Shown: positions 2,053-38,318, numbered from the stretch's first letter. The stretch: 40,484 bases of DNA from Bacteroidales bacterium (GCA_029938715.1 JAOZUK010000026.1:1-40484); one strand, 5' to 3'. Notes: a model not told the origin generated them from the sequence alone. A program made the numbers and translations.

Positions 2053-5000
2053 TTAATAAATGATGCTCCTTTCTACAGCGTAAATCACACTTACCGGCCC
2101 ATATAGTCCTGACTTTCTAAGTGGTGCATCTGTCCAGGATTTTACTTCGGCTGCTACACTTCCTTCAATGTTGGTTTGACAGTACTGCTTCTTATCCGGG
2201 TGCATGGCATCACCGATTAATCTGTTGCACCACGTATTTGCAATATCAATTTCCAGCTTATTTTCACCAGCTTTTACTACATCTGTAATTTCAATGCGAT
2301 ACGGAGCTTTCCATAGCGTACCGAGATATTTTCCATTTATCGTTACATCTGCCAGTAACCAGAGATTACCGAGGTCCATAAATATTCGATTTTCATTGCC
2401 TATATTTTCCTTGGAAATAGTAAAACTGTTTTCGTAGTGAGCAATTCCAGAATAGAAGTTTATCCCCTGATTATCAAATTCCGAAAGTGACTTCAATTCA
2501 GTGGTTATCACAGAATCCGGAGCTCCCCATCCTTCTGTAAAGGAAATTTTCCATTCGCCGTTTATTTCAATTGGATCTGGAATATCATTCACGGAAAACT
2601 TCAGAATCTTGTTTCCCTTTGTTATCATTTCGAATTCCTCGTTCTTAAAAGCAGTAAGAGCGATCTTTTCTTTATCCATATGGTTTACGATATTTTCACC
2701 CGTAATGCTTTCTAAATGAGCCCTGTTTTCATCTGGAGAAAAAACAACAAAAGCAGACCCGTATTTGTCAAGGTTCATTTCAAATGAAATACCCTCTTCT
2801 GATTCTTCGTAGACAAGCTGTGGGCTTTTCCCTCCGTTATCGGCAAACCAAAGCTCCGGAGTTTTATTATTTACTCTGAATGTTGCAGAAAATGTGACTG
2901 GTAGATCCCTTTTGTTCCTGATGAAATAAATCTCTTCACTCTCTGTGCTCCGGTGTATAAAATCCAATTCGGCACTTTCATCTGAACTAGTGAATTGAAA
3001 ATCCGGATTCACTCCACGTTCTGCCAGCACCTTGTTTATGGTTTTTCCAGAAATGATTTTTCCTTTTCCGTAATTATTCTCCTGAACGGTATTGCCATCG
3101 ATCTTGCCCCAAAGCTTAGCTGCCAGTTCCTGTACAGCCACATCATGTTCCTTGTGCTGGTACAATCCGGTTGATTTTATGGGCCTGGGACCAAGTACGG
3201 TCGCCCCTTTGGCTGCCAGTTCCTCTATCCTTTGCAGTGCAGCCAGTGTGATATCGTCCTGCTTGGGAAGGACTAATACTTCATAGCTCATGCCGTCCGG
3301 CAGAACAATTTTATGATCTATGACATCCATCCGGGTAAGCATTACCTCCAGGTTGGTCACATCATAATCGTATCCAAAATCAAGCGACCGGTTTGTATGT
3401 TTGGGAGGAATAAAATTAGCTCCCCTGTCCCCATAGTAATAGACCACATCCCCAACAAAAAGTCCTTGCTGTAAAAGGAAAGAAGAGCGTGCCAGATAAT
3501 CCAGCCAGGGCTTCATTTGATTCCACCAAACCAGATTCACATTGAAATGGCTTCCTGCATGATAGACCCATCCCGGTTTGCCTGCTTCCGGCGGATTGTG
3601 TTCACCCATGTGCCACACCACATGGTTCATTCCTTCACAAAAGGCCCTGTCGGCAGAAGGCTTCAGATCCACAGGTCCGTCCATCCAGTGGCGAAAACCT
3701 GTAAAGGACTCCATATGCACAGTTTTTCCACCATAAATATGAGCGGCTGATGCGGTCTCCTTTACTACCCAGAGTCCATCCCAATGTTCACGCCAGGGCC
3801 AAAATTCTCCTTGCATCTCATCAATTGAATTAAGAGCTCTTAAAGCTTCAACAGGCACCAGGTGAATGGGTGGACCAGGACCTGCAGACTCAGCTTTGAT
3901 AGCCATTCCTCGATTTTTTGCGGTATTATTTGCAGTAATATAGAATCCGTCAATTAACAGATCTCCCAATGTTTTCTGGTAGTCATACAAGAAACGAGCT
4001 GTAGTCTCTTCATCCTCGATTACATAACCACTTAAAGCAGGAAGGTATTTTATTAAATCATAGCTTCTGTAGCTCTTGAATTGCTGAGGCAAGTCGTAAG
4101 TCCAAAGAAGACCTCTTACCTCATAACTTGGAAGATATAAATTGTCAATTGGCGACTTGAACAAATCGCCAAATTTTCTTTCCAGTCTTTCTGTTATATA
4201 GTTAATATGATTCTTTGTGGCTGTTGCGCTCAGGTGGTCAGTAGCCAGGCCATCTGATGCTGGGTTAGGGATTTTAAGCTTCTCTCCGGTATTGGACATT
4301 ACATATCGGATAATTTCCCATTCTCCTGCCGGCACATCCCACTCTAATATACCATCAGCGATAAGTTTATCAGAGATAATCTGAATCGAATTAGCATCTT
4401 CGATACGTAACGGTGTTTTTCCGTTTGATATCCAACTTCCTGCATCACCTTTGTATTTGCCATCGTTCAGGTTTTTGGCTCTCCAGTTTCTTTCGCTTCC
4501 CAATTGAGAGTTGAATCGTACTTCCATACCACCATCATACCTGTTGTTGTATGGACGATGAATTACATCTTCTCCTTCGTGATTATATAATTCAAACTCC
4601 GCTAACTGTACATAGTGAGATTTTGTATTGTATCCATCATAAATTTTCAACCTTACGAATTTTGCCTTTGTATCTTTTGGAAGGCTGAATTTTTGTCGTC
4701 TGGTATTTGCTTGTAACGTTCCATTGTAAGCAACTTTGAAACTTGCATCCTTGTCATCGGTTTCACTCACATCGACTGAAAAATTCTTTGTAAAAATGTT
4801 TTTACCGTCGGCTATATCCTCATTGTTATTTTCACAGTTAGATAATACTACATGGTCCAAATCATGAAGTTTATCATATCCTAATTTATACACAAACGTG
4901 TAAGCATCCTGACGGTTCTTAACCGGAATGGCCAAAACAGCAACTTCTTCCGAAATCACAGGCTTCCCATTTTTATCTAGTATGGCTAATTCCGGAAGCT

Positions 5001-5517
5001 CAGGATATTCAAGTTTAGTTTTTAGCTTTTGGGGGCCCTGCACTGTAATGCTGTTTTGGTACAAAGCAAGAACAGCTTCGTCCGGTTCAACCCAGGAACC
5101 ACCCATATCCCAACTGCTACAAGCAGCAAGTTCCACACTCATTCCCAATTCATCAGCTTTTTTCACTATGAAGCTAAAATTATCGAGCCATTCATCGCTC
5201 ATAAATTTTGGTCCGGCAGGTGGAAAAAATTCCTCGTTACCAATGATACCCATATCAAAAACCAATAATCCTCCAATTCCTTTTTCAGCATATTGCTCCA
5301 ATTCTATCTGAACAAAATCTTTGTTCAGATAGCCATTAAGTAAAATAAAATAAACCGTTGGTTTTGCTTCATTGGGTGGGTTTTGAAATCCCTCGTACAA
5401 GGCTATTGTGCTTTTTAATACATCCGCTTTTTGATGATTGACGGATTTATCATTGCGGCATCCTGTCAGGCAGAAGATCAATAAAACAGACAGTAGGATA
5501 AAAGGTTTTTGCTGCAT
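2053..5517 (-). CDS. GH106 family alpha-L-rhamnosidase-like lipoprotein
   Basis: 1154 residues with a lipoprotein signal (LTGC, Cys20), so probably anchored in a membrane facing the periplasm or cell surface. The N-terminal barrel carries typical GH106 features: FQNPPNEAKPTVYFILLNGY near residue 45, then GIGGLLVFD and a run of aromatic-rich segments such as WHMGEHNPPEAGKPGWVYHA. A discoidin-like beta-sandwich insertion ends in YVQLAEFELYN, and the C-terminal part (GEWKISFTEGWGAP onward, ending near NKLEIDIANTWCNRLIGDA) is the jelly-roll domain usual in this family. GH106 enzymes remove terminal alpha-L-rhamnose from pectic or algal polysaccharides. It follows the CocE gene by 17 bases. Start ATG 5517 fits the signal peptide. 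The family has many divergent members, so the exact linkage is unknown; catalytic glutamates were not assigned. Confidence 0.8.
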   Translation of the reverse strand: MQQKPFILLSVLLIFCLTGCRNDKSVNHQKADVLKSTIALYEGFQNPPNEAKPTVYFILLNGYLNKDFVQIELEQYAEKGIGGLLVFDMGIIGNEEFFPPAGPKFMSDEWLDNFSFIVKKADELGMSVELAACSSWDMGGSWVEPDEAVLALYQNSITVQGPQKLKTKLEYPELPELAILDKNGKPVISEEVAVLAIPVKNRQDAYTFVYKLGYDKLHDLDHVVLSNCENNNEDIADGKNIFTKNFSVDVSETDDKDASFKVAYNGTLQANTRRQKFSLPKDTKAKFVRLKIYDGYNTKSHYVQLAEFELYNHEGEDVIHRPYNNRYDGGMEVRFNSQLGSERNWRAKNLNDGKYKGDAGSWISNGKTPLRIEDANSIQIISDKLIADGILEWDVPAGEWEIIRYVMSNTGEKLKIPNPASDGLATDHLSATATKNHINYITERLERKFGDLFKSPIDNLYLPSYEVRGLLWTYDLPQQFKSYRSYDLIKYLPALSGYVIEDEETTARFLYDYQKTLGDLLIDGFYITANNTAKNRGMAIKAESAGPGPPIHLVPVEALRALNSIDEMQGEFWPWREHWDGLWVVKETASAAHIYGGKTVHMESFTGFRHWMDGPVDLKPSADRAFCEGMNHVVWHMGEHNPPEAGKPGWVYHAGSHFNVNLVWWNQMKPWLDYLARSSFLLQQGLFVGDVVYYYGDRGANFIPPKHTNRSLDFGYDYDVTNLEVMLTRMDVIDHKIVLPDGMSYEVLVLPKQDDITLAALQRIEELAAKGATVLGPRPIKSTGLYQHKEHDVAVQELAAKLWGKIDGNTVQENNYGKGKIISGKTINKVLAERGVNPDFQFTSSDESAELDFIHRSTESEEIYFIRNKRDLPVTFSATFRVNNKTPELWFADNGGKSPQLVYEESEEGISFEMNLDKYGSAFVVFSPDENRAHLESITGENIVNHMDKEKIALTAFKNEEFEMITKGNKILKFSVNDIPDPIEINGEWKISFTEGWGAPDSVITTELKSLSEFDNQGINFYSGIAHYENSFTISKENIGNENRIFMDLGNLWLLADVTINGKYLGTLWKAPYRIEITDVVKAGENKLEIDIANTWCNRLIGDAMHPDKKQYCQTNIEGSVAAEVKSWTDAPLRKSGLYGPVSVIYAVERSIIY

Positions 5518-5534
5518 GCTTATTCTTTATACAT

Positions 5535-7187
5535 TCAGTTAATGTCCAGAACCGGAAGAGTAATATGTGAGGGGTACTTCTCCCCGAAATATATCTTCTG
5601 ACGGGCAATCCTTGGGTTTTGTGCATTGAAAATATCCTCTCCTGAATTCAGGTTGCGGTTGTATCTGGGAAAGAGGGCTGAAGAGATCACCACACGTAAC
5701 TTATGGCCAGCCTCAATCTGGTAGCCAGTTGCCCAGACGGATATATCAATCTGCTTTATCCAGGGATCGGCCCTCACCTCTGAATACACAGTTTTACCAC
5801 CTTCCTGGATATTAATGATCTTTCCATCAGCGCGCACTTCCTGCAGGGAGACAAAGAAATCAGTAGATGGTGCATCCGTACCGGCATATATGGTGGCGTC
5901 AATTGGCCCCAGCAGGACTAGCGGTTCCTCCAGCGCTTCACTTTCAAATACAACCTGGTCCGGGCGTTCTGTATTCGGATTCTGGTATGCCGGTCCCACC
6001 CCCACTCCAAGGAATGTTCCACCAAGCGATGGAAAGGGATCAGCCGGGTCATAAGTATATTCAATCACCTTCTCAGTGTGATCATGGTCCCGGTTTATGG
6101 TACCATCCGGATTCAGATAATAGGGAGTCGCTTTACTATTTTGAGGTGGCCAATGATCAAAATCCAACCACTCATTCCTGTGCATTATAAAAAATGAGTA
6201 AGGTTTGCCGGAACCGGTCTGCACACTCTTTTCTGAATCATCTTCCAGATGACGTTTGGTAAAAGCAACAATATCATCATCAAATTCTGAAAGATTACCA
6301 TCTTTACCGAAATCCGTTTCTATGGTTATCTGACCATGAGCGTATGGACCAATAACCAGCCGGCTATCGGGATGACGGTAGGGTTCCATCATTTCAAAAT
6401 CACGGATCTGTGCCATGAGGAAAATATCATACCATCCTGCAATGGTTAAAACGGGACACGTAACAGCAGCACGGTGGTTCATGGTTCCCCAGTAGGCATC
6501 CTCGTAAGGATGCTCCAACCAGCTATCCATGAAATCAATCTGCTTCACAGTAGAATCATCAGCAACCGACAGGGGCAGAACGAAATAGCTATTCTTCATC
6601 TTCTCTGGGTCAACTACATTATAGGTTCTGGAGCCATTGGAGAGTCCCCAATTAAGAGCAGTCGCCAGGGAATAGATCCCTCCCGGGTAAACCAGCTCAT
6701 ACATTTTCGCCGAGGTAACGGTTGGCGTGATCACATCCAGCTGATCGGCAATGGCCCATTGTGTATAGCCCACATAGCTACCGCCCCAGCCTGCAATTTT
6801 ACCATTGGACCAGGGTTGTGACCGGATCCACTTCACCGTGGCAAGCCCGTCACTCCTTTCGTGTATAAAAGGGTGGTATTCTCCATTGGATTCGAATTTG
6901 CCACGTGTATCCTGAAGGACAGTAACCCATCCGTTTTTCAGGAAACTCCTGATATAATGTGCTCCACCCTCTCCTAATCCGTTCATATTGTAAGGGAGCC
7001 TGACAAGGATGCAGGGAAATGGGCCCTCTCCTTCCGGGAAATAGAGGTCGGTCCCCAGTTTTATAGAGTCTTCAACTGTGATGAATACAGTCTCCTTAGT
7101 AAGCGCTGTGCTTTCCCCTTTTTGAGAATGTAACAGGAGTTGGGAGGAGAGTGCCACCAACCCAAGCAACGTGATGATCTTTTTCAT
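5535..7187 (-). CDS. secreted CocE/NonD-type alpha/beta hydrolase (putative glycan esterase)
   Basis: 550 residues with a Sec signal peptide (MKKIITLLGLVALSSQLLLHSQ). The alpha/beta-hydrolase core has the nucleophile elbow GWGGSYVGYTQW with Ser137, an acid candidate in AGWYDIF (Asp254) and a histidine in GPYAHGQ (His284), the order expected for the CocE/NonD and X-Pro dipeptidyl-peptidase (S15) family. The C-terminal part (YTYDPADPFPSLGG onward, ending in GEKYPSHITLPVLDIN) is the jelly-roll domain normal for the family. Known members hydrolyse cocaine, cephalosporin esters or X-Pro peptides. Its start overlaps the upstream nucleoside-hydrolase homologue by ATGA and a rhamnosidase follows, so an ester on a polysaccharide (acetyl, methyl or aromatic) is the more likely substrate here. 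That role is inferred from context only. Confidence 0.85.
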   Translation of the reverse strand: MKKIITLLGLVALSSQLLLHSQKGESTALTKETVFITVEDSIKLGTDLYFPEGEGPFPCILVRLPYNMNGLGEGGAHYIRSFLKNGWVTVLQDTRGKFESNGEYHPFIHERSDGLATVKWIRSQPWSNGKIAGWGGSYVGYTQWAIADQLDVITPTVTSAKMYELVYPGGIYSLATALNWGLSNGSRTYNVVDPEKMKNSYFVLPLSVADDSTVKQIDFMDSWLEHPYEDAYWGTMNHRAAVTCPVLTIAGWYDIFLMAQIRDFEMMEPYRHPDSRLVIGPYAHGQITIETDFGKDGNLSEFDDDIVAFTKRHLEDDSEKSVQTGSGKPYSFFIMHRNEWLDFDHWPPQNSKATPYYLNPDGTINRDHDHTEKVIEYTYDPADPFPSLGGTFLGVGVGPAYQNPNTERPDQVVFESEALEEPLVLLGPIDATIYAGTDAPSTDFFVSLQEVRADGKIINIQEGGKTVYSEVRADPWIKQIDISVWATGYQIEAGHKLRVVISSALFPRYNRNLNSGEDIFNAQNPRIARQKIYFGEKYPSHITLPVLDIN

Positions 7188-8134
7188 TTCTTCGGTTCTT
7201 GAATCATTAAATTTTCAATTACTTCAGCCAGTTCCTCGTTGGAGATTTTATTGTACAAGCGGTAGTCCTGCCCATTTTCACCTGCTTCCCATATCGCTCC
7301 ATCCTCCAAAGTAAACGAGAGGGTCCCCCTTTTAAGCTTGAAATAGTCACTTTCACCCTCCACAGCAAACAGTGTGGAGATCTGATCCCAGCTGCTTCTG
7401 TCAATCTCATTGTAATGGTTTTCCCATAATTTATAAACTGTTTTTATGGGATTGGTATCCGGTAGTTCCTGTGTACGTCTGCCCGTTTTTACTGCCTGTC
7501 CGTCTACCGTAAAAACAACAGGTACCGGGAATTCATTAATGGCTGTTTTGGATGCATCCCGGTCCCATCTCATATTCCAATTCATACCCTCTCCAAGCAT
7601 GGCCACCCACCATTTCACCTTTTTGCGGACAAGCTCTTTTCCGGACAGAGGACTCCATTCATCCGGTTCGGATTCCAGCAGTTTCGCGATATTTGTTAAG
7701 TGGCCAACGGTGACCATGGTGACGCTTGCATCTTCCTGTGATGACAGAATCCGCCTGTAGAGGTTGGTTGCCTCTTCAATTTGCTTCTGCTCTCCCATAT
7801 CATTGGGAAAAGTTTTTGCAATCGTTTCAGCATAAACCGAACCCTTGTTCACACCCTCTATAAATGGAGCACCGATGGGAATATCAGGACGCCCCCAAAA
7901 AGTATTGATCGCATCAAGGGCAAACGGGCTCCAGAAATGCGTGGTTGAGAGGATTGTGGCCAGTATCTCCACATCACCCCGGTCAGCAAAAGTATGCAGC
8001 ATATAAAGCGCGCCAACATCATCAATATCTGAATCGAAGTCCGTATCAAAGATAATTTTTTCCTGACTGTAAAGACTGATTTGACAAATAACAGCTAATA
8101 GAAAAGACGAAATAATAACATTTTTCAGGTGCAT
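7184..8134 (-). CDS. secreted inosine/uridine nucleoside hydrolase-like protein (copy B)
   Basis: 316 residues with an N-terminal signal peptide (MHLKNVIISSFLLAVICQISLYSQ). The calcium-site motif of the nucleoside hydrolase superfamily is present as DTDFDSDIDD (Asp30, 32, 38 and 39), with the conserved Asn region GEGMNWNMRWDRDAS and a late Asp in SSWDQ (Trp249-Asp250). Classical members hydrolyse the N-glycosidic bond of ribonucleosides in the cytoplasm. This one is exported and encoded between GH172 and an esterase-like hydrolase, so a furanosidic substrate within a polysaccharide is worth considering. The residue before the late Asp is Trp rather than the His of inosine/uridine-type enzymes. 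It is similar to copy C at 25018-26058 (both have GKEL(V)xKKVKxWVAM) and more distant from copy A. It ends with an ATGA overlap with the next gene. Confidence 0.8.
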   Translation of the reverse strand: MHLKNVIISSFLLAVICQISLYSQEKIIFDTDFDSDIDDVGALYMLHTFADRGDVEILATILSTTHFWSPFALDAINTFWGRPDIPIGAPFIEGVNKGSVYAETIAKTFPNDMGEQKQIEEATNLYRRILSSQEDASVTMVTVGHLTNIAKLLESEPDEWSPLSGKELVRKKVKWWVAMLGEGMNWNMRWDRDASKTAINEFPVPVVFTVDGQAVKTGRRTQELPDTNPIKTVYKLWENHYNEIDRSSWDQISTLFAVEGESDYFKLKRGTLSFTLEDGAIWEAGENGQDYRLYNKISNEELAEVIENLMIQEPKK

Positions 8135-8148
8135 TGCTTTCTCTTTTT

Positions 8149-9651
8149 TTAGTTCGTATTCCTTTTTTCAAAACTTCCAACCGGTTCAAGAACAATGGCA
8201 TCGATGAACAGATTGCCGGGTGCTCCGGGATTTGATGTTCCACGGTAAACAGCCTTCAGGATATGAGTGCCTTTTTCCAGGTTATGCATATTCCCCAGTT
8301 TAATATCTGTGACAAAGTGATGTTCCTCAAAAAGATCCTTCGCTTCCACCAGCAACTGCTCATTGAGATAAAAATCATACACTCCTGCATCGCCACGGGG
8401 CCAGACACGTGCAAACACAAGGTAATTTCCGCTTTCTGATACATCGAAGGGGAGGATGAGTGTCTCTCCTTCGCGGTCAGGAGTAAAATGCAACCCCTTG
8501 CGATTGGTGTAGGATATGTCTTCGTGTATCACTGCATTCTCCGGCAGGTTAGCTTCCAGGGTCTCATCCACCTGGATCAGTGTAAACGGTGTCATCCGAT
8601 CGGCCGCCGGAGGCATTTTTGTAAATCTTTTTGCCTCCCCGATCTGGTACCAGAACGCGACTGATGAATAGAAATCGGGCCGCCTGTCACTATAAGCTTC
8701 CGCCAGAGTGTTGTCTTCGTAAAAGGTATTCCCCTTATGTTCAATTGAAAATTTCAAGGATTTCTCAAAAAACACAGGATCAGTCACATGCCATCGATAA
8801 GCAGTGATCCTGCTGCCTGTATTCATGCCTTCCCATATGGAAACTCCGTAATTCGGACGGTTAACAACCCTGAAAGCCCAGGCGTCGTTAAAGTAATCTT
8901 CTGTCCCCGTTCCATGAAGTGTGGGTACGGTATCACCATCCACATAGAACCGGTCATCTCCCTCACCAAACCAACCGGGCTGACTGGCCCTCACTGACAG
9001 AACAGTGCCCACGTAATGCCCTCTGCCTGCAATATCTGCTATCAAATAATCCTTTCCTTGCTGTGGAGGATTCTCCTGACGATACCGGGCATGAAAATAG
9101 GGGACGTCCTCAGGAACCAATCTTTTTTCCCAATCCACATACCAGTAAAGTCCAGTGGTATCGCTTTCCGATTCATTGGTAATGGTGACCCGGGCTGATT
9201 CTCTGAAAGGCATATTCCAGTAGCAATTGTATGCCCGGCCAAAGGATGATGTGGCCACCCGTGCACTGTTAATATTTACCTGCATACCATGTCCTGCTGC
9301 AAAAAAATCACCCAATGGAGCCTCCACTGCCGGTTCCTCGCTCCCATCCCAATAAATCCGTAAAACCACTGATCGGGGGAAACCTCGCTCATAACCAAAA
9401 GCGGTAAACCAGATATGGGTGATCCTGCCTGGCCCCTCCAGATCTGCAAGCACCCGGGACTGACCCGGATCAAACCTCCTTGCATCCGCATTCCCATTTT
9501 CCCACTCCAGGTCATAACTGGAAGCCCGTTGTGTGATGGCTCTTTCCGGGTACTCCATGGAGTCTGACGGATACTCACTATTTTTTCCGGATTGTACACA
9601 ACTGTTACATGCAACAACAACAAAAATCAGGTATCCAATAAAATACTTCAT
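8149..9651 (-). CDS. GH172 (DUF2961) family lipoprotein, putative furanosidase
   Basis: 500 residues. A lipoprotein signal is visible (VVVAC, Cys15; a second Cys at 18). The body matches DUF2961, now GH172: LEGPGRITHIWF, VVLRIYWDGSEEPAVEAPLGDFFA, and GTGTEDYFNDAW are the hallmark segments. Characterised GH172 enzymes act on D-fructofuranose or D-arabinofuranose units, so a furanosidase activity is expected. The last roughly 110 residues (SYTNRKGLHFTPDREGETLILPFDVSESG onward) form an extra beta-rich module resembling a carbohydrate-binding domain. The start is an ATGA overlap with the stop of the upstream nucleoside-hydrolase homologue, and 14 bases separate it from the next one, so three possible furanose-acting proteins are co-expressed. 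Confidence 0.88.
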   Translation of the reverse strand: MKYFIGYLIFVVVACNSCVQSGKNSEYPSDSMEYPERAITQRASSYDLEWENGNADARRFDPGQSRVLADLEGPGRITHIWFTAFGYERGFPRSVVLRIYWDGSEEPAVEAPLGDFFAAGHGMQVNINSARVATSSFGRAYNCYWNMPFRESARVTITNESESDTTGLYWYVDWEKRLVPEDVPYFHARYRQENPPQQGKDYLIADIAGRGHYVGTVLSVRASQPGWFGEGDDRFYVDGDTVPTLHGTGTEDYFNDAWAFRVVNRPNYGVSIWEGMNTGSRITAYRWHVTDPVFFEKSLKFSIEHKGNTFYEDNTLAEAYSDRRPDFYSSVAFWYQIGEAKRFTKMPPAADRMTPFTLIQVDETLEANLPENAVIHEDISYTNRKGLHFTPDREGETLILPFDVSESGNYLVFARVWPRGDAGVYDFYLNEQLLVEAKDLFEEHHFVTDIKLGNMHNLEKGTHILKAVYRGTSNPGAPGNLFIDAIVLEPVGSFEKRNTN

Positions 9652-10583
9652 AAGCGTTTAAAATTTTGTTTCACATACAAATCCATCAGGCGTTTACTGA
9701 ATTCATCCACATCAATATCTGTAGCAATCACACAATTGGGATCTCTGGCTTCATCAATAACCGTATGACCCTCATCATCAACATACATATATACTTCACG
9801 TGTTTCATACAGTTCCGGCCATAGAACCAGACCCAGGGCAGTACAATCCCACAAAATAGGTGTATGCCATTCTCCTGAATAGTTTAATTCCCAAAGACGA
9901 AGTAGTTCTGTAAGAGCATCGGTTAAGGGTGTATCTCTGGCCTCTACCTGCATGCATCGCTCTTTGTTCCATTTAATCGCACCGGCAACCTTTACTCCTG
10001 ATAGAGTTATATTATTATCGATATTGGATATAAAGGCCTGTGATGCTTCTATATCACCTATAACATTCCACTCTAAGGCCCCAAAGTGATAATCTCCAAA
10101 CATAGAGTATATATGCTTTGCATGCGATAATGCTTTACTATCTAACTCAATAATATCCTTCATGTTCGGCACAGGGCCTACGGTAAACAATATGACCTCT
10201 CCCGGGTATGCATTCAGAGTTTTTACAATAAATTCGGCAGCACTCTGCTCTTGAGACTCTATCTTTTTGAATCCCTTACCATATTCAAATTGTGGTGATG
10301 CACCATCTCCTGTTTTTCTGCCAATATATACCGGTATATGGTCCATGCCTGTCTCATAGAGCATGCGTAATGCAATGCGGCCACGGGCTTCTGTGTCTCC
10401 ATAGTCCATACATATACCCAGTATATCAAACTCATCCTGAGCTGCCAGCATCATTGCAACCGCAAAGGCATCATCAATATCACCACCAAGATCACAATCC
10501 AGGATAATTTTCTGCCTTTCCCCACCAAAACCCAGGTTGAATACCAACAAACCAAATAATATTAGTGATGCGATTCGTTTCAT
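9648..10583 (-). CDS. secreted nucleoside hydrolase-like protein (copy A), first gene of operon
   Basis: 311 residues with a signal peptide (MKRIASLILFGLLVFNLGFG). It has the calcium-binding signature DCDLGGDIDD (Asp29, 31, 37, 38), the VGPVPNM segment, EWNVIGDIEAS and a late Trp245-Asp246 pair in LWDCTALG. This is the nucleoside hydrolase fold. The family cleaves ribosides, but export and operon position ahead of GH172 argue for an extracellular glycoside substrate. It is clearly diverged from copies B and C, which share more sequence with each other. No gene is found upstream on the same strand for over 240 bases, so this should be the operon's promoter-proximal gene. I found no convincing TAnnTTTG box in the leader. 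Confidence 0.8.
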   Translation of the reverse strand: MKRIASLILFGLLVFNLGFGGERQKIILDCDLGGDIDDAFAVAMMLAAQDEFDILGICMDYGDTEARGRIALRMLYETGMDHIPVYIGRKTGDGASPQFEYGKGFKKIESQEQSAAEFIVKTLNAYPGEVILFTVGPVPNMKDIIELDSKALSHAKHIYSMFGDYHFGALEWNVIGDIEASQAFISNIDNNITLSGVKVAGAIKWNKERCMQVEARDTPLTDALTELLRLWELNYSGEWHTPILWDCTALGLVLWPELYETREVYMYVDDEGHTVIDEARDPNCVIATDIDVDEFSKRLMDLYVKQNFKRL

Positions 10584-10831
10584 CTGTTTAAGTTTTCAGA
10601 ATTAAGAATAAAGTGTCCGGAAATAAATCAACGTCAATTTAGCATTTCTATGAAAGTGGGACAATACATTATATGAGCCTAATTTTGTACTATTTGACTC
10701 AACAAATCGCATCCACTTATATACTTGGGCTACTCCATTCGCAGAACAGGCCAAGCAAAAGAGACAGCATAATGATGCGGTCAAATCTATATTGTGAGAT
10801 ATGGGTCAAAAACATAAGGGTCTGTGTATGG
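10584..10831. other. intergenic stretch with no recognisable gene
   Basis: This is the leader side of the first operon. A 60-codon minus-strand open frame exists here but has no domain-like sequence, and I see no convincing promoter box or hairpin. Confidence 0.4.
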
Positions 10832-11078
10832 TTAATTTTTCAAAAGCTTCTCCAGGAGATCTATATTCAATTCGTGGTCTGGTTCAAACTCTTTACTGTT
10901 CACATATTCAATCAGACTTGTACGTAGCTGCTGAGCGGCGGGACGATCCTGGAGGTCTGTATCAAGATCCATGGCACAGACCAGTAGTTTACCTTTTCCA
11001 ACCCTTGTTTCGAACAGGGTGCCCAGTTTTGCATTGCGATCGTAATTATCAATAATCTGTAAGATGGGCAAGAAATTG
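10832..11078 (-). pseudogene. C-terminal remnant of a GH2-type glycosidase
   Basis: About 80 codons translate to a tail with KLGTLFETRVGKGKLLVCAMDL, DRPAAQQLRTSLIEY and LLEKLL near the end. The same blocks occur in the C-terminal region of the intact GH2 enzyme of this window (KLSALMEARVGNGAIMICNIDL, ETANQLLRSILSY, LVEELL), so this is the tail of a GH2-like enzyme that has lost its catalytic part. Sequence is well diverged from the intact copy, so it is not a recent duplicate of it. The remnant is open upstream to about 11078, where recognisable similarity stops shortly before the tandem repeats of the ATPase gene. Confidence 0.7.
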
Positions 11079-11123
11079 CCAACGGTTTACTAGCTTTCAG
11101 AGTCCTATTTCACAATGAATTCC

Positions 11124-11192
11124 ACTAACGAAAGGTGTTGTTGTTTACTAACGAATATATATGTTGTTTACTAACGAAAGGTATTGTATATT
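11124..11192 (+). repeat. three tandem 23-bp repeats upstream of DUF4143 ATPase
   Basis: ACTAACGAA recurs at 11124, 11147 and 11170, an exact 23-bp period. Copies 1 and 2 both end GTTGTTT; copies 1 and 3 share ACTAACGAAAGGT. The third copy runs into the promoter -7 box. Even spacing just ahead of a start codon suggests binding sites for a regulator, possibly autoregulatory. Confidence 0.8.
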
Positions 11193-11194
11193 TG
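11164..11194 (+). promoter_or_regulatory. Bacteroidota-type promoter of the DUF4143 ATPase, apparently leaderless
   Basis: TTG at 11164-11166 and TATATTTG at 11187-11194 are separated by 20 bases, matching the -33/-7 pattern of the Bacteroidota housekeeping sigma factor. Transcription would begin about 5-7 bases downstream, at or next to the ATG at 11199, leaving no room for a leader. The elements lie inside the tandem repeats, so a protein bound there would block transcription. Confidence 0.6.
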
Positions 11195-11198
11195 AAGA

Positions 11199-12407
11199 AT
11201 GATACTGAAATCAGAAATAGAAGAAATAGCTCAATCGCAAAAGAAGAAAATAATTACCAGAGATTTGGGCATTGCCAGAATCGTTGATTGGACATTACCT
11301 GACACCCGCTCACATGCGCTGATCCTTACAGGAATTCGACGCTGTGGGAAAAGCACTTTCATGTATCAGTTAATGAAAAAGACCGGAGAGAATTGTTTCT
11401 TTCTCAACCTTGATGATCCTCGACTTTATGGGTTTGATCTTAATGATTTTTCGCGAGTACATGAGATAATTTCAGAAGGCACATACAAATATCTATTCTT
11501 TGATGAAGTTCAGCTAGTTGATAAATGGGAACGTTTTATTCGTCAGCTAGTTGATCTTCAGGAGTACTATGTTGTATTATCCGGATCCAATGCCTCTATG
11601 CTAAGCAGTGAATTAGGTACACACCTGAGTGGACGGCATATAAGCAAAGAGCTGTTTCCTTTTTCGTACGAGGAGTTTATAAACTGTACAGAAGCTCAAA
11701 GAGGGATAGATACTACAATAGCTTTTTTAGAAACCGGAGGATTTCCTGCATATGTAAAAACTAAATATCCTGAAATGCTTTCCGAAGTATTGAATGATAT
11801 CATTTACCGGGATATTTGTGTGCGTTTTGGTGTAAGAAATCACAAAGCCCTGCAACAGCTCTCTATCTATCTAATTTCAAATGTCGGCAAACTAATGACA
11901 GCCAATAGCTTGCGTAAGGTGCTGCCGGTGGCTTCAACTAGCACGATGATGGAGTATCTGAACTATTTTGAAAATGCTTACCTCGCTTTCTATGTCCCCA
12001 GATTTAGTTATTCTTACAGAAAGCAAATCCAGAACCCTCGTAAAATATACGCAATTGATACAGGTATGGTATCGGTAAATTCCAGATCATTCAGCAATGA
12101 TGTTGGCAGGAAATTTGAAAACATGGTCTATCTCTCTTTGCGAAGAAGGTACAATGAAGTATTCTATTTCTCTGAGAAAGGTGAGTGCGATTTTGTGTTT
12201 TGCAAAAATGGAAATCCGGAGGGTCTGATACAGGTTTGCCTCACGCTTACAAGGGATAACCTGAAGCGGGAATTGGATGGTCTGTATGAAGCCATGGATT
12301 ACTTTAAGATCAAACAGGGTCTGATTATCACACTGGAGCAGGAAGACCAATTTATGAAAAATGATATGGAAGTTGTTGTGAAGCCTTATCATCAATGGGA
12401 ATCCTAA
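11199..12407 (+). CDS. AAA ATPase with C-terminal DUF4143 nuclease-like domain
   Basis: 402 residues. The N-terminal AAA_14 domain has a Walker A motif in GIRRCGKS (residues 45-52) and Walker B in YLFFDEVQ (Asp102-Glu103), followed by a sensor segment VVLSGSNASML. The C-terminal DUF4143 part contains DTGMVSV and a restriction-endonuclease-like segment GECDFVF then GLIQVCLTL, where QVC stands in place of the classical E-x-K. These proteins are widespread in Bacteroidota and often scattered like selfish genes; no biochemical role is established. It stands alone, between a GH2 remnant and a GH78 pseudogene, opposite in direction to both flanking operons. Next Met is about 55 residues downstream and beyond Walker A, so ATG 11199 must be the start despite the lack of a leader. 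Confidence 0.88.
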   Translation: MILKSEIEEIAQSQKKKIITRDLGIARIVDWTLPDTRSHALILTGIRRCGKSTFMYQLMKKTGENCFFLNLDDPRLYGFDLNDFSRVHEIISEGTYKYLFFDEVQLVDKWERFIRQLVDLQEYYVVLSGSNASMLSSELGTHLSGRHISKELFPFSYEEFINCTEAQRGIDTTIAFLETGGFPAYVKTKYPEMLSEVLNDIIYRDICVRFGVRNHKALQQLSIYLISNVGKLMTANSLRKVLPVASTSTMMEYLNYFENAYLAFYVPRFSYSYRKQIQNPRKIYAIDTGMVSVNSRSFSNDVGRKFENMVYLSLRRRYNEVFYFSEKGECDFVFCKNGNPEGLIQVCLTLTRDNLKRELDGLYEAMDYFKIKQGLIITLEQEDQFMKNDMEVVVKPYHQWES

Positions 12408-14060: not shown

Positions 14061-15149
14061 TTAATCGGGAATAAAAAGTGGCAGATCCAGCCACGCCAGA
14101 CCTATATGTCGTTTCATATGGCTCGTGCTGTTTCCACCTGGGGCATCGTAAAACAAAGCCAACCGGTGGCCAATCTGAACAACCGATGGCAGCCCAATGC
14201 ACTTCTTTGACCAGGTACAATTTTGACCATCTAATACAACTGCCTTATTCTCAGCATCCCATTGGTTCAGATCTTTGCTCCAGTATACCCAGATGGCATC
14301 GGTGTATTCTCCTTCATCAATGCCAATATGGTTGGTGAACAGAAACCAGGTCTCAATACTTTCCTCGTAATATAATGTGGAGTTCTCTATCTGCTCTTCA
14401 ATAGGAACCATGGGTTGTGGGTCAGGAATCCACGGACCATCCAGGTCCTTGGTCCTGGCAATACCCAGCGTGCGCTGAACAGATGGATTTCCTGGCTTCT
14501 GAGTTGTAGCACTGAAGAACTGAAGATACTCGTCATTGTTCTTGATGACCATACCAGGACTGGCGGTGATGGAATAATAGGTGTCAGGACTGGTTCGGAA
14601 AGGCACAACATCCTTCTGTTTGAGCCACGGACCTGCAGCACTTTTTCCTTTGGCCTTCATGGTGAGATAGGGAAATGAAGGAATCAGATCAGGCGCGTCG
14701 CTAACATTAGGTGTTCCCAGATAGAACATATGCCATTCCTCTCCGTCAAAATAAGTAACACCATAGGAAGCCGACTTCGAGTCCTCTTCATCAGGTTTAC
14801 CGAAATCGAGGATGGGGCCTCTCTTTTCCCAGGCTAAAAGATCCTTGCTTACAGCCTGAGAACAGAGCCATCCTTTAGGTCCTGCTGCGTCGTAGTGCAG
14901 ATAATAGGTGCCATCTGCCTCGAACACCCATGCGTCGCGGGCACCGAGGAGGTCGCATTTGTCCGGTCCATCTCCGTACCTGAGTACAATTCCATGGTCC
15001 TTTGCATCCATCCTCAGCGTGGCCGCCGGTCTGCCATCACGGTATTTCTTTATACCGGCCTGTTTTTTGTTCTCTTCTGATTGCGCTGCAACTGATGTTA
15101 TTGCAGCAAATAAAATCAAAGCAACACGTATTATCTTTGTCACTATCAT
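14061..15149 (-). CDS. secreted GH43/GH32-like five-bladed beta-propeller protein
   Basis: 362 residues from ATG 15149; a GTG at 15164 would add five residues. A signal peptide follows (IIRVALILFAAITSVAAQ). The body alternates WYLHYD- and FYLG-type blade strands: DAWVFEADGTYYLHYDAAG, DGEEWHMFYLGTPN, YLQFFSATTQ, WFLFTNHIG and HRLALFYDAPGG. Such repeats are typical of the GH43/GH32/GH117 clan of furanosidases and related enzymes. ARDAW is a candidate for the first acidic residue of the active site. It is the last gene of the second operon, 21 bases after the GH106 gene. Substrate cannot be assigned; arabinofuranose or galactose derivatives are usual in related families. Confidence 0.7.
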   Translation of the reverse strand: MIVTKIIRVALILFAAITSVAAQSEENKKQAGIKKYRDGRPAATLRMDAKDHGIVLRYGDGPDKCDLLGARDAWVFEADGTYYLHYDAAGPKGWLCSQAVSKDLLAWEKRGPILDFGKPDEEDSKSASYGVTYFDGEEWHMFYLGTPNVSDAPDLIPSFPYLTMKAKGKSAAGPWLKQKDVVPFRTSPDTYYSITASPGMVIKNNDEYLQFFSATTQKPGNPSVQRTLGIARTKDLDGPWIPDPQPMVPIEEQIENSTLYYEESIETWFLFTNHIGIDEGEYTDAIWVYWSKDLNQWDAENKAVVLDGQNCTWSKKCIGLPSVVQIGHRLALFYDAPGGNSTSHMKRHIGLAWLDLPLFIPD

Positions 15150-15170
15150 AATATCTCTTTTCACTTGCCC

Positions 15171-18100
15171 TTACTTAATCACTTCTATGGTTACCGGTCC
15201 CATTAGGCCCGATGGGGTAAGTGCTTCGCCCTCTTTCAGATCTGCCACCGTGTAGGTAGTATACCGATCTGCTTCTGGAAGGTACATATCCCCAACCATG
15301 CGGTTCCTCCATACATTCACCACCTCAACCTGCAGTTGGTTTGTACCGGCTACAAGCAATTCTTTTGCATTCAGTCGGTAGGGTGCCATCCACGCTACGC
15401 CCAGATCCTCTCCATTGAGTTTTACCTGTGCCATCACACCTACTTCACCCAGGTTCAGGAACATGTCCCCTTCGGGGATTTCACCCATAGTGAATTCTGT
15501 TGTATAGGTGGCTGTTCCGGAATAGTACTTCATGTGATCATCCGGTGACTCGGTCCAGCTGGAAAGCTCTACAAATTTCACAGGATCGCTTGGGCCAAAC
15601 TCCTTATTCTCAAATTCAACGGTCCATTCTGAATCAAGTGCAGTCAGCAGCTCGGGTTGGGGAGAATTCTCCCCATATCCTGCCCCGGTAGTCTCATTGC
15701 TGCCTGAAGAAAAGACAATAAAGCAACTTTCATGCTTCTGCATGGCCAATGGAATGGTGGTTCGGGATCCATCATCTGTGTAGTCATTGAGCTGTCGGAT
15801 CTCACCGGTGACTGCATCCCACAATTGAGGCTGAAGTCCCGATACCCTGAATGAGGGCTCAAAACTCAATACACCATCTCCCTGGTTGGTGAGGAAATAG
15901 ATCTCCATACCAGGCATGGTGCGGTGGGTCCATAAAAACGGCGCCTCAGCGGGATAGACCACATCACCAGGAACCTGGATAAAATCAAGTGCCTCCTGAA
16001 GACCCATACCATCCAGCACATAACCCTCTCCTACTGCATTTTCAAGCTTTCCACTTGTGTGGGATTCGCCCCACATGCGGTTGGCAATATCCAGGATATC
16101 CCGGTCACACTGAGGATAATTGTGAAGGCTGGGTGACTTCAGCGGTTTGCCTCCAAGGATGGTTCCACCTGCCTGCACCAACTCTTCCATTTTGGCCAGA
16201 ACATTAGGCCTCATATTTGAATTTTCTGGCAAAACAAGAATGGAGTAGGTCAAACCGTCTGGCAGAACAAATTTGCCATTTTCAACCGAAAGTCTATCGA
16301 GGATCACTTCGGCGTTGATATAGTCGTAGGAGTATCCTACAGGAAGATCAGGATCTTTGGTACCCGTCATTTTCGGAGCATCTTCGCCAATAAAATAGAG
16401 TACATCGGCGGCGTATTTACCCTGTTGAAGCATGTGCTGACACCTGCGGGTATAATCCACCCATGCCGAACCCTGGTCAAACCATGTATTCAGACGGTTA
16501 AATTCGGTGGAGAACCAGGCATTGACTCCGGGAGCCTCTTCACGGGGCTGTTGAATGTACAGGTGGTACACATAATGGTTGATCCCTTCTGTCCAGCTCC
16601 AGTCACCCCTCTTTTTCAACAGGGCCGGATGGCGTTTATAGGATTGCTGTCCCGCAGTGAAAGCTTCCGCAGAGGTAATGGGCTTTCCATACATATGTGC
16701 AGCAGAGGATCCTGATTTGCATTCTATATCGCCCAGGCTTCCTTCGTTCCAGAACTCGCCGGCTACCAGGTCGCTTTGACCACCATACATCAGGAATTCA
16801 CCTGGATATCCCCAGTGCCCATAGGGCTCCAACCAGGTCTTAAGTCCGTATTCATTGGCCACTTTACGCAAACCTCCCACATATTCGTAAGCCACATCAT
16901 CTGCTACGGAACGACGAAGGTCCCAGAGGAAACGATCCGACTCTTCCACGCTTCCAACCACACGACCAGAGATAACCGGCAGGTACTTTACCGGATCATA
17001 TCCAAACTTCTTCTGGAACTTTGCAGCATACCCATCGGTCCAGTTCTGTGAACCCATCTCATAGCTGTCGGCGATCAGGTATTTCAGGGCCGGCCGGCTC
17101 TCTTCTGGAATCCTTTTAATGATCTCTGCCATATATTGTTCAAAGTGGAATCGGGCCAGCTCAGAACTGGCTTTGTCTAACTCGTAGCCTTTACCCTGTG
17201 GGGCAGCCGGTGAATTTTCTGTCCCTGTGGGAGTCATTCCAATCCGCAATACGGTCCATTCTCCTTCTGGCACATCTACCACGGTCAATAAACCATTGGC
17301 ATCCATCTGATCACTGATGTCATGCACCTCTGAAATCAACATATTCTGATCTGTAATGGCTTCCTGGGATTCCCACAGGTAAGTATTGAATTCGGGAAAA
17401 GGTGTGGGGTGCATCTTTCCCAGAGATTTTTCGATGTAGTTCTCCAAAACCTGGGCTTCCGTGATCCGAATCTCGGCAAAACCAGCTGCAGACAATAAAC
17501 GTCCGGCTCCTGCGGCCGCATCCCAGCTTGCACTTGTGGCATTGGTGCATACCAGCCTATATGCTTTTGCATCCGTTTCAGGAATAGATATAGCTAATGG
17601 ACCGTGGGTTACCGGCCCTACGTTTACTCCACTGTTGCTGCGATCAAACACAAAGGATTTAATGGTTTTATAAGCTCCGTCTACCTGGGCCTGTAGCTCC
17701 ACATTGCATTTAAAAACGGGGGTTGCGGGTGTAAGAACAATGCTTCGGGCTGTGATGGACTTTGCTGAAGAGATATCTACTACAAATGGATCTTTGTTGC
17801 TCCTTTTAAAGAGTACATTCCGCTTTGAAATATAATTTTCCTCAGATGCTATTTTTTGAAATCCAAGCACATAGGTATCCTGAAACTCATCCGCTGGTTT
17901 TGGCAACTTTACAGAAATCGTACCGCCTCCCTGAACTGTTGTTTCGGAGTAAACCAGGTGACGCATGGCCTTGTCATAGGTGACCCAGGGACCGCCGCTC
18001 TGGCTCCATCCGGGACAGTTAAACATACCTATATCAATACCAATTCGATGGCCCTCATTAACTACGTGAACCATGGCATCCCACCATTCATCGCTGAACA

Positions 18101-18410
18101 GGGGTACAGGACCATCCACTTCATCCGGATTGATGTTACCGATCAGGACCGCTCCCAATCCAAACTCCTTCATGGCTTCCAGGTCCTTGGTGATTCCCTC
18201 TTTGGAGATATCATCCCCTATCCAGTAGTAGTAACACCAGGGTTTATTGGTATCGGCTGGAGTGATAAATCCCTCCTGGATGTTATCATAAACCTCCTGT
18301 GATATCTGTACCGGGCGGGTACAAAATGCAAAGGTCAGGGATATTGCGAGCAAAATGGAAAGCCTGAAAATATTTCCTGTGTAATCCGAATTCCGTTTCA
18401 TAATCTTCAT
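15171..18410 (-). CDS. GH106 alpha-L-rhamnosidase-like protein
   Basis: 1079 residues. The start has a long positive N-region and a hydrophobic segment (FRLSILLAISLTFAFCT); FAFC is a poor lipobox, so either lipoprotein or plain Sec export is possible. The catalytic part shows GH106 hallmarks: PWCYYYWIGDDISKEGITKD, GLGAVLIGNINPDEVDGPVP, FNCPGWSQSGGPWV, then EGINHYVYHLYIQQPREEAPG. The C-terminal jelly-roll (LDSEWTVEFENKEFGPSDPV, WMAPYRLNAKELLVAG, NVWRNRMVGD) is complete. It removes alpha-L-rhamnose from a polysaccharide or oligosaccharide. It lies 15 bases after the sulfatase stop, in an operon with GH78, suggesting both enzymes work on different rhamnose linkages of one glycan. Diverged from the GH106 of the first operon. 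Confidence 0.87.
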   Translation of the reverse strand: MKIMKRNSDYTGNIFRLSILLAISLTFAFCTRPVQISQEVYDNIQEGFITPADTNKPWCYYYWIGDDISKEGITKDLEAMKEFGLGAVLIGNINPDEVDGPVPLFSDEWWDAMVHVVNEGHRIGIDIGMFNCPGWSQSGGPWVTYDKAMRHLVYSETTVQGGGTISVKLPKPADEFQDTYVLGFQKIASEENYISKRNVLFKRSNKDPFVVDISSAKSITARSIVLTPATPVFKCNVELQAQVDGAYKTIKSFVFDRSNSGVNVGPVTHGPLAISIPETDAKAYRLVCTNATSASWDAAAGAGRLLSAAGFAEIRITEAQVLENYIEKSLGKMHPTPFPEFNTYLWESQEAITDQNMLISEVHDISDQMDANGLLTVVDVPEGEWTVLRIGMTPTGTENSPAAPQGKGYELDKASSELARFHFEQYMAEIIKRIPEESRPALKYLIADSYEMGSQNWTDGYAAKFQKKFGYDPVKYLPVISGRVVGSVEESDRFLWDLRRSVADDVAYEYVGGLRKVANEYGLKTWLEPYGHWGYPGEFLMYGGQSDLVAGEFWNEGSLGDIECKSGSSAAHMYGKPITSAEAFTAGQQSYKRHPALLKKRGDWSWTEGINHYVYHLYIQQPREEAPGVNAWFSTEFNRLNTWFDQGSAWVDYTRRCQHMLQQGKYAADVLYFIGEDAPKMTGTKDPDLPVGYSYDYINAEVILDRLSVENGKFVLPDGLTYSILVLPENSNMRPNVLAKMEELVQAGGTILGGKPLKSPSLHNYPQCDRDILDIANRMWGESHTSGKLENAVGEGYVLDGMGLQEALDFIQVPGDVVYPAEAPFLWTHRTMPGMEIYFLTNQGDGVLSFEPSFRVSGLQPQLWDAVTGEIRQLNDYTDDGSRTTIPLAMQKHESCFIVFSSGSNETTGAGYGENSPQPELLTALDSEWTVEFENKEFGPSDPVKFVELSSWTESPDDHMKYYSGTATYTTEFTMGEIPEGDMFLNLGEVGVMAQVKLNGEDLGVAWMAPYRLNAKELLVAGTNQLQVEVVNVWRNRMVGDMYLPEADRYTTYTVADLKEGEALTPSGLMGPVTIEVIK

Positions 18411-18425
18411 TTATGTGAGTTATAT

Positions 18426-19895
18426 TTAATTTTCTTGATTGGCTGTATCAGCACTAAAATAGAAATTGTACCAGTTTCTTTCTCTTGAGACTGGCCCTTC
18501 AGGAACACCAGGCTCGTATAAATCTGAAGCCCAGGCCTCCAACTCTTTTTTTAATTCGGCGGCCTTGTTTGGGTACTCTCCAATGAGATTCTCCGACTCG
18601 ACTCCTTCGGGATCCAAATCAAACAGGAACTCAAACTCCCCTGCTTTCAGAAATTTCCAGTTACCCGATCGAACTGCGGTCTGGTCCCAGAATCTCCAGA
18701 AAAGGTATTTATGGGGTGCACCTGTTTTCTCCCCTGTAAGGTAGGGAATCAGATTGACTCCATCCATCTCTCCAGGGTGATCCAATCCGGCCACTGCTAC
18801 CGCAGTTGCTGCCACATCCAATGAGATCACCGGTTCATGATATTCCTTTCCGGCAGGTAATACGGCGGGCCAGGTGACGAGATAGGGAACCCTGATGCCT
18901 CCTTCTGATAACATTCCTTTTTCACCCACCAGTGGATCATTCAGGGATCCGTCCCAGGCACCTCCTTTAAATTCCAGGGTCCGGTCCTCTTTAACCATTT
19001 TGGTGGGAGCTCCATTGTCTGAAATAAAGAAAATCAGGGTATTCTCAGCAATCTCATACTCCTCAAGGGACTTCCTTAACCTGCCCACCCCATCATCGAT
19101 GGCGGACATCATGGCCAGGCAATAGCGCCTGCGTTCCGGCATATCACCTGGAAACCTTGCAAGGTATTTATCGGTAGCTTCAAGCGGCACATGGGGTGCA
19201 AAATAAGACAGAAAGAGGAAAAAGGGTTGATCATGGTTTCGTTTTATAAATGCCAGGGCAGCATCACTCTGCACATCAAGGCGGAACCTGGGGTCGGGCC
19301 TCCACTTAAATTCCTGGTCATTTCCATCCAGGTCAAAATTGGCCCAATATTGTCCCATTGGTCCATAGTAGGTTTCCATAAATCCACGCTCAGAGGGATA
19401 GTAAGGAAACCTGTGGTCAAAGGTTATATCAGCAGGTCCTCGCTTATTCCTGGGTTTGGCTGCAACCTCAGGTAAATTTTCCTCAATCCACGGGTCCATC
19501 ACATGGTTGGGATCCAGGTGCCATTTACCTACCATGCCTGTTACATATCCTGCCTGCTTCATCCGCTGGGGAAGAAGGACCTCCTCAAGCGGTACGGGTC
19601 GTGTTCCATTGTGATCCACACCAAAACGTTCCTGGTACCTTCCCGACATCAGACCCGCACGGGAGGGTATACACTGGGGAGCTGTCACATATCCCGATGT
19701 CATCCGGATTCCATCTCTGCCCAGTTGATCCAGGTGGGGGGTATTAATATCGTCTACAACCCCCTGAATACCAACATCGGCAAATCCCTGATCATCGGTG
19801 AAGATTACAATGATATTGGGTCTTTCAAGCGTTTTCTCACAAGAAGTGATCAGGACTGCACCGGTCAGAATTGCCGCAATTATCAAATTTTTCAT
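18426..19895 (-). CDS. S1-family (formylglycine) sulfatase lipoprotein
   Basis: 489 residues with a lipobox (LITSC, Cys19). The sulfatase core begins RPNIIVIFTDDQGFADVG, giving the metal-binding Asp34-Asp35, and Cys75 in CIPSRAGLMSGRY is the C-x-P-S-R residue converted to formylglycine. SYFAPHVPLEATDKYLARF and FFISDNGAP supply further conserved active-site segments. It removes sulfate esters from a glycan outside the cytoplasm and depends on a maturation enzyme (anSME-type radical SAM), which is not in this window. Placement between two GH106-type genes implies the rhamnose-containing polymer is sulfated, as in algal or echinoderm polysaccharides. SulfAtlas subfamily cannot be told by eye. 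Confidence 0.92.
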   Translation of the reverse strand: MKNLIIAAILTGAVLITSCEKTLERPNIIVIFTDDQGFADVGIQGVVDDINTPHLDQLGRDGIRMTSGYVTAPQCIPSRAGLMSGRYQERFGVDHNGTRPVPLEEVLLPQRMKQAGYVTGMVGKWHLDPNHVMDPWIEENLPEVAAKPRNKRGPADITFDHRFPYYPSERGFMETYYGPMGQYWANFDLDGNDQEFKWRPDPRFRLDVQSDAALAFIKRNHDQPFFLFLSYFAPHVPLEATDKYLARFPGDMPERRRYCLAMMSAIDDGVGRLRKSLEEYEIAENTLIFFISDNGAPTKMVKEDRTLEFKGGAWDGSLNDPLVGEKGMLSEGGIRVPYLVTWPAVLPAGKEYHEPVISLDVAATAVAVAGLDHPGEMDGVNLIPYLTGEKTGAPHKYLFWRFWDQTAVRSGNWKFLKAGEFEFLFDLDPEGVESENLIGEYPNKAAELKKELEAWASDLYEPGVPEGPVSRERNWYNFYFSADTANQEN

Positions 19896-19951
19896 CTCTA
19901 TCTTTTTTACTGTGTTTTACTGGCTATCCTGTCAGCAAAACATTATACCAT

Positions 19952-22255: not shown

Positions 22256-22257
22256 TA

Positions 22258-25008: not shown

Positions 25009-25017
25009 AATGATCTA

Positions 25018-26058: not shown

Positions 26059-26086
26059 CTAGATTATTTTTCATAGGCAAACTACA

Positions 26087-38296: not shown

Positions 38297-38318
38297 CGAT
38301 ACTTAAAATGTGATTATC

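Follow-up and report, generated by a model that had tools for sequence, protein, structure and literature searches.

Nucleoside hydrolases (NHs) carry an N-terminal DxDxxxDD motif, with DxDxxxxxDD as the fungal variant, and the ribose-binding motifs ExN and GN (PMC10526354). A tryptophan in place of histidine is the hallmark of the purine-specific group II NHs, and the ordinary NH of Crithidia fasciculata splits the O-riboside p-nitrophenyl-ribose (pNP-ribose) well (PMC8910321). Members of glycoside hydrolase family 172 (GH172) act on D-arabinofuranosides (D-Araf) and D-fructofuranosides (D-Fruf) (PMC10115798, PMC8605356). The ribose-utilization systems (RUS) of Bacteroidetes include the BT2803-2809 type of Bacteroides thetaiotaomicron (PMC12596196, citing Glowacki et al. 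2020). Here, we analyse a stretch of 40,484 nucleotides (the window), which is a whole contig of a Bacteroidales bacterium (GCA_029938715.1, JAOZUK010000026.1:1-40484) and encodes two NH-like proteins, NH-A and NH-B, on either side of a GH172 protein.

Our preferred interpretation, to which we assign a probability of roughly 45%, is that NH-A and NH-B belong to an operon for a rhamnose-rich glycan bearing pentofuranosyl residues and release ribose or a close pentofuranose. Release of a ribose-type pentofuranose is most likely common to both NHs, and the source of this sugar is plausibly the same glycan. The locus hints at NH-type enzymes that strip ribose-like sugars from polysaccharides.

Organization of the gene run

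The following features were recognized, all on the minus strand:

740-2053, minus: transporter of the major facilitator superfamily (MFS) (PF07690, 1.1e-65)
2053-5517, minus: GH106 alpha-L-rhamnosidase (PF17132, 1.3e-149)
5535-7187, minus: CocE/NonD-family serine hydrolase, acyl esterase-like, exported as judged by eye (PF02129 and PF08530, TIGR00976)
7184-7187, minus: ATGA shared by the stop of NH-A and the start of CocE (TCAT on the plus strand)
7184-8134, minus: NH-A, divergent RUS-type NH-like protein of 316 aa (PF01156)
8149-9651, minus: GH172 (DUF2961) exo-furanosidase with a lipobox-like N-terminus (PF11175)
9648-9651, minus: ATGA shared by the stop of NH-B and the start of GH172 (TCAT on the plus strand)
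9648-10583, minus: NH-B, NH-like protein of 311 aa, exported as judged from its N-terminus by eye (PF01156)

The six genes, NH-B, GH172, NH-A, CocE, GH106, and MFS, form one run on a single strand. A 14-base spacer (8135-8148) separates NH-A and GH172, CocE and GH106 are 17 bases apart, and GH106 and the MFS gene overlap by one base. The overlapping starts suggest co-transcription. The CocE protein matches Peptidase_S15 and PepX_C of Pfam as well as CocE_NonD (TIGR00976, 8e-94). The nearest models of the MFS protein are of the aldonate/galactonate type; the best NCBIfam match, TIGR00893, lies under the cut-off of that model.

A preliminary description of this DNA had reported consecutive genes with both ATGA overlaps and the 14-base gap, all carrying export signals. 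The open reading frames (ORFs) and their spacing were confirmed from the sequence. The N-termini of NH-A, GH172, NH-B, and CocE resemble signal peptides, that of GH172 with a lipobox-like VVAC; these export calls are readings of N-termini by eye. Of the coupled cassette proposed there, the coupling was retained but not the extent, as the run continues to GH106 and the MFS gene. The rhamnose-rich polysaccharides named there as test substrates agree with the location of these genes in a rhamnoside-degradation cluster.

Two different NH subfamilies

NH-B is a clear member of PF01156 (IU_nuc_hydro; 2.1e-39, 136 bits), while NH-A scores just over the cut-off of 34.2 bits (2.2e-9, 37.9 bits). Profile matches of NH-B among solved structures reach E-values of ~1e-29 with RihB/RihA-type NHs. 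AlphaFold2 models were obtained with pLDDT values of 92.7 (NH-A) and 85.4 (NH-B), and only NHs appeared among the 50 PDB matches listed by Foldseek for the two models.

The two proteins share 23% identity (pairwise E 2e-7). The nearer paralogue of NH-A, with 42% identity, is a third NH-like protein of the window, NH-C:

25018-26058, minus: NH-C (PF01156, 1.1e-12, 48.7 bits)

In a maximum-likelihood tree of 37 rows, NH-A and NH-C fall into one 28-row clade (support 99/98). NH-B belongs to a separate clade (96/94; its six core rows alone, 83/83). Three long-branch rows are unsurely placed, and one of these (L040) joins the NH-B clade. Origin of the arrangement by tandem duplication of a single NH gene is ruled out by the low identity and the separate clades, and the term "copies", under which both proteins had been described before, does not apply. 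The genome to which the window belongs contains five PF01156 matches, three of them inside this 40-kb rhamnoside region.

NH active sites

The N-terminal aspartates are kept in both proteins, as D30, D32, D38, and D39 in NH-A and D29, D31, D37, and D38 in NH-B. The corresponding motifs, DTDFDSDIDD and DCDLGGDIDD, have the longer DxDxxxxxDD form. Two alignments were examined, namely A5 (NH-A and relatives, 24 rows) and A6 (NH-B and relatives, six rows). The last calcium-binding aspartate is invariant in both (D250 of NH-A in 24/24 rows; D246 of NH-B in 6/6). The ExN motif is retained in NH-B (E171-W-N173); NH-A has N185-W-N187 and has lost the glutamate, and its orthologue shows D-W-N at this position. 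The GN motif is absent from NH-A and NH-B, and the respective loop is shortened. Since both belong to PF01156 by profile and fold, the missing GN concerns the substrate and not the family. Catalytic competence of both proteins is likely, as predicted from sequences and models.

The histidine before the last aspartate is replaced by tryptophan in NH-A (W249) and NH-B (W245). This position is occupied by W in 20 of the 24 rows of A5 and by W, Y, or F in A6. At the beta3-alpha3 loop position, where group II NHs have a second tryptophan, NH-A has Tyr101 in a gappy part of the alignment and no tryptophan was seen in NH-B; relatives have W in 11 and Y or F in another 11 of 24 rows. The Trp-for-His change was considered as proof of a non-nucleoside substrate and rejected: group II NHs carry the same change, so it is not diagnostic of a new substrate.

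GH172

The protein encoded between the two NHs matches PF11175 with 281 bits (8.8e-84; cut-off 27) and the solved structures 7v1v and 8ic8 in phmmer searches (1.7e-53 and 1e-50). In alphaFFase1 of Bifidobacterium dentium, E291 is the nucleophile and E270 the acid/base, and mutation of Y187, W267, E270, E291, D292, or W298 abolishes or cuts activity (PMC8605356). The alignment to 7v1v equates these residues with Y169, W227, E230, E251, D252, and W258, so that all six compared catalytic/-1 subsite residues are kept. By these residues the enzyme is predicted to be catalytically intact, and its earlier designation as a GH172 furanosidase stands. A C-terminal extension of about 130 aa has no match in Pfam. 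The protein is about equally far from four solved members (175-185 bits). Since these comprise a fructofuranosidase, exo-D-arabinofuranosidases, and an uncharacterised Bacteroides uniformis structure, the sugar cleaved by GH172 is not nameable from sequence. The genome has 12 DUF2961 matches, the highest number among the genomes of the order sample.

Connection to ribose utilization

Relatives of NH-A that are 33-50% identical to NH-C or NH-A occur in operons with PfkB, an ADP-ribosylglycohydrolase, and a ureide/sugar permease. NH-C itself is ~50% identical to NHs of ribokinase operons. PfkB together with ADP-ribosylglycohydrolase and/or a sugar/ureide permease was found in 9 of 20 relative loci and was absent from all 14 control loci (Fisher p 0.003), the controls being random stretches from genomes overlapping but not identical to those of the relatives. 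Two of the nine positive loci are near-duplicates, and p is 0.005 without one of them. One such kinase was compared with NCBIfam and scored above the equivalog cut-off for ribokinase (TIGR02152, 383 bits). The operons, which would serve to scavenge ribose, presumably correspond in gene content to the BT2803-2809 RUS.

The presence of many NH-A relatives in ribokinase operons suggests a general role in releasing ribose and does not point to D-Araf or D-Fruf; it weakens the interpretation given in the preliminary description. The genome of the window also has a permease, a ribokinase, and an ADP-ribosylglycohydrolase on contig C737 (54841-58399); no NH was found on this contig. Ahead of this ribose run (L173, C737:46000-60000, positions 8842-12400) are genes for a DeoC/LacD-type aldolase, three sulfatases, and an AXE1 esterase. 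Two further loci, L143 (G432:C80) and L144 (G674:C10), contain three to five clustered NH-like genes with ADP-ribosylglycohydrolase, PfkB, and permease; an Sde182 NH-like protein is additionally encoded in L143.

Conservation of the neighbourhood

Of 324 genomes from the order, only G408 (contig DAOWJB010000339.1, labelled Bacteroides sp. CSMAG_2058) proved to have close orthologues of both NH-A and the window GH172. The gene order there is GH78, GH172 (80% identity), NH-A (78%), a second GH172 (30%), CocE (73%), a 410-base gap, and NH-B (82%), followed by a PL11-like rhamnogalacturonan lyase on the opposite strand. Thus, the succession of GH172 and NH-A has been preserved, which goes beyond chance, but the bracket has not. 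Although rearranged, the GH172 and NH-A pair, CocE, and NH-B remain together, at 73-82% identity, across two families of the order. An ADP-ribosylglycohydrolase is encoded in G408 on contig C23, near the contig end.

No other co-located PF01156/PF11175 pair was detected in 149 genomes of the order and 164 of the class, all places being compared. A wide conservation of the NH-GH172 pair, which we had considered, is contradicted by these samples. The genome survey proposed in the preliminary description therefore yielded one recurrence, in another Bacteroidales genome, and no further case; the NH-GH172-NH bracket is not conserved, since CocE separates NH-B from the pair in that genome.

A search of genome contigs with NH-B gave two loci only. 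The relative in JAOZLK010000065.1 (75%) is followed by a TonB receptor, GH78, and GH106, and its upstream side ends at the contig edge. More distant relatives occur in G567 (44%; three sulfatases and GH92 nearby), G639 (40%), and G120 (46%). Glycan clusters with NH-B relatives are L073 (GH78/GH106/TonB), L148 (sulfatases and GH92), and L069 (GH78/GH172/PL11-like). The last of these encodes a single protein (L069:11631-14024) with an FGE-sulfatase (sulfatase-modifying factor) domain and a PL11-like C-terminal domain. A limited literature collection yielded no paper connecting NHs with either GH172/DUF2961 or rhamnosidases of polysaccharide loci.

Possible function of the gene run

Ribofuranose is present in bacterial O antigens and capsules. 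The O7 glycan of Klebsiella pneumoniae is composed of three rhamnose (Rha) residues and one ribofuranose (Ribf) (PMC11231755), and alpha-Ribf, xylofuranose (Xylf), and Araf side chains exist in bacterial polysaccharides (PMC11127046). Rhamnosidases, GH172, and NHs could, therefore, share one substrate. In the proposed scheme, the operon would target a rhamnose-rich glycan with pentofuranosyl residues. GH172 would act as an ordinary retaining exo-furanosidase of the alpha-D-Araf or alpha-D-Fruf type. The two NHs would be separately recruited calcium-dependent hydrolases of the NH fold, releasing ribose or a closely similar pentofuranose outside the cytoplasm. An O-linked ribofuranosyl residue of the same glycan would be the source, and the ribose would then be imported and phosphorylated via the C737 locus. 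It is possible, if still doubtful, that one or both NHs remove pentofuranosyl groups from a rhamnose-rich polysaccharide alongside GH172, as O-ribofuranosidases or as pentofuranosidases of another kind, which would amount to a glycoside hydrolase family hidden in the NH fold. If NHs of glycan operons are ribofuranosidases, many "nucleoside hydrolase" annotations in Bacteroidales would have to be revised, and an enzyme class for polysaccharide degradation would become findable.

Several points weigh against this scheme. A common substrate is suggested by gene neighbourhood, and the evidence for the NH-A/GH172 pair comes from two genomes. An alpha-Ribf side chain would be unsuitable for NHs, which act on beta-ribosides. 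The PL11-like gene in G408 points to rhamnogalacturonan I, and we know of no ribose in this polymer. Ordinary nucleoside scavenging accounts equally well for the fold, the residues, and the ribokinase association, and the NH-B homologue in G120 shares its strand with genes for a phosphoesterase and for a purine nucleoside phosphorylase, which flank an ORF resembling thymidine kinase as judged by eye.

Scavenging of nucleosides or other N-ribosides, with the exported NHs lying in a glycan operon by happenstance and GH172 alone serving the glycan, is a realistic alternative, though a tentative one. Besides the family, the fold, the ribokinase operons, and the G120 neighbourhood, it is favoured by the tryptophan before the last calcium-binding aspartate, a signature of group II purine NHs (PMC8910321), and by the aromatic beta3-alpha3 position of most relatives. 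However, no nuclease, nucleotidase, or nucleoside/base transporter was found in the gene annotation of the window, a single rhamnoside region holds three of the genome's five PF01156 matches, and ribose-binding motifs are missing, ExN Glu in NH-A and GN in both NHs (PMC10526354).

The absence of the ExN glutamate (Asn in NH-A, Asp in its orthologue), together with the shortened ribose-binding loop and long stem branch of NH-A and the D-Araf/D-Fruf activity of the GH172 family, to which its partner belongs (PMC10115798, PMC8605356), would fit an NH fold repurposed for a non-ribose furanoside, such as D-Araf or apiose. This reading, the nearest to the preliminary description, is improbable, because the Asp/Asn residues serving calcium and the ring hydroxyls are preserved as they are in ribose-specific NHs, ExN is intact in NH-B, and relatives are linked to ribokinase. 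Coincidence is more improbable still: the rhamnoside clusters of this lineage gather many hydrolases, and an NH could stand beside GH172 without joint function. The occurrence of the pair in two genomes only, with the bracket not conserved, agrees with this, and so do the ~10 GH172 and five PF01156 places in the genome, for which chance alone predicts ~0.16 pairs at distances of up to 10 kb. Yet the co-travelling of GH172 and NH-A, CocE, and NH-B and their overlapping starts argue against coincidence.

Other features of the window

A second gene cluster was identified by Pfam matches:

14061-26875, minus: GH130-like, GH106, sulfatase, GH106-like, GH78, NH-C, and 3-keto-disaccharide hydrolase-like proteins

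NH-C adjoins GH78 (22258-25008). The protein encoded at 19952-22261 matches only a short middle stretch of GH106 and possibly represents a distinct family. A possible extension of the glycan region past the window is indicated by a C-terminal part of a GH78 rhamnosidase (39652-40425) close to the end of the contig. Pfam searches of the larger ORFs revealed no SusC/SusD pair in the window, whose ends limit this search. The glycan region also includes two AAA_14/DUF4143 ATPases (11199-12407 and 38310-39641; role unassigned) and a HipA_C protein (34145-35095).

DUF4185 corresponds to GH183 endo-D-arabinanase, a natural partner of GH172. The match at 36198-37484 is below threshold (33.9 bits; cut-off 39.5), and this protein, which is unlike the BNR protein of L069, was rejected as a GH183 partner.

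Comparison with known systems

NH-A and NH-B resemble group II NHs (IAG-type, such as IAG-NH of Trypanosoma vivax) in the tryptophan before the last calcium-binding aspartate; the aromatic Tyr101 at the aligned beta3-alpha3 position of NH-A is a further likeness to this group. Unlike group II NHs, they have DxDxxxxxDD instead of DxDxxxDD, lack GN, and appear exported (by eye), and NH-A lacks the ExN glutamate. By profile score, they are closer to group I chains than to group II. NH-B aligns over nearly its full length with the group I pyrimidine NHs RihA/RihB/YeiK (E ~1e-29) but differs from them in the Trp-for-His replacement and the shortened ribose-binding loop.

GH172 shares the six catalytic/-1 residues with alphaFFase1 of B. 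dentium and the DgGH172 enzymes of Dysgonomonas gadei. It differs by the additional C-terminal ~130 aa and by the lack of a neighbouring D-arabinan or fructan enzyme, save the sub-threshold DUF4185 match.

In common with RUS, the NH-A/NH-C clade is often accompanied by ribokinase, ADP-ribosylglycohydrolase, and permease, a likeness by clade and context, and the genome has such a ribose locus at C737. Unlike in RUS, this locus is devoid of an NH, and the window operon contains GH172, GH106, and CocE in place of ribokinase, ADP-ribosylglycohydrolase, and SusCD.

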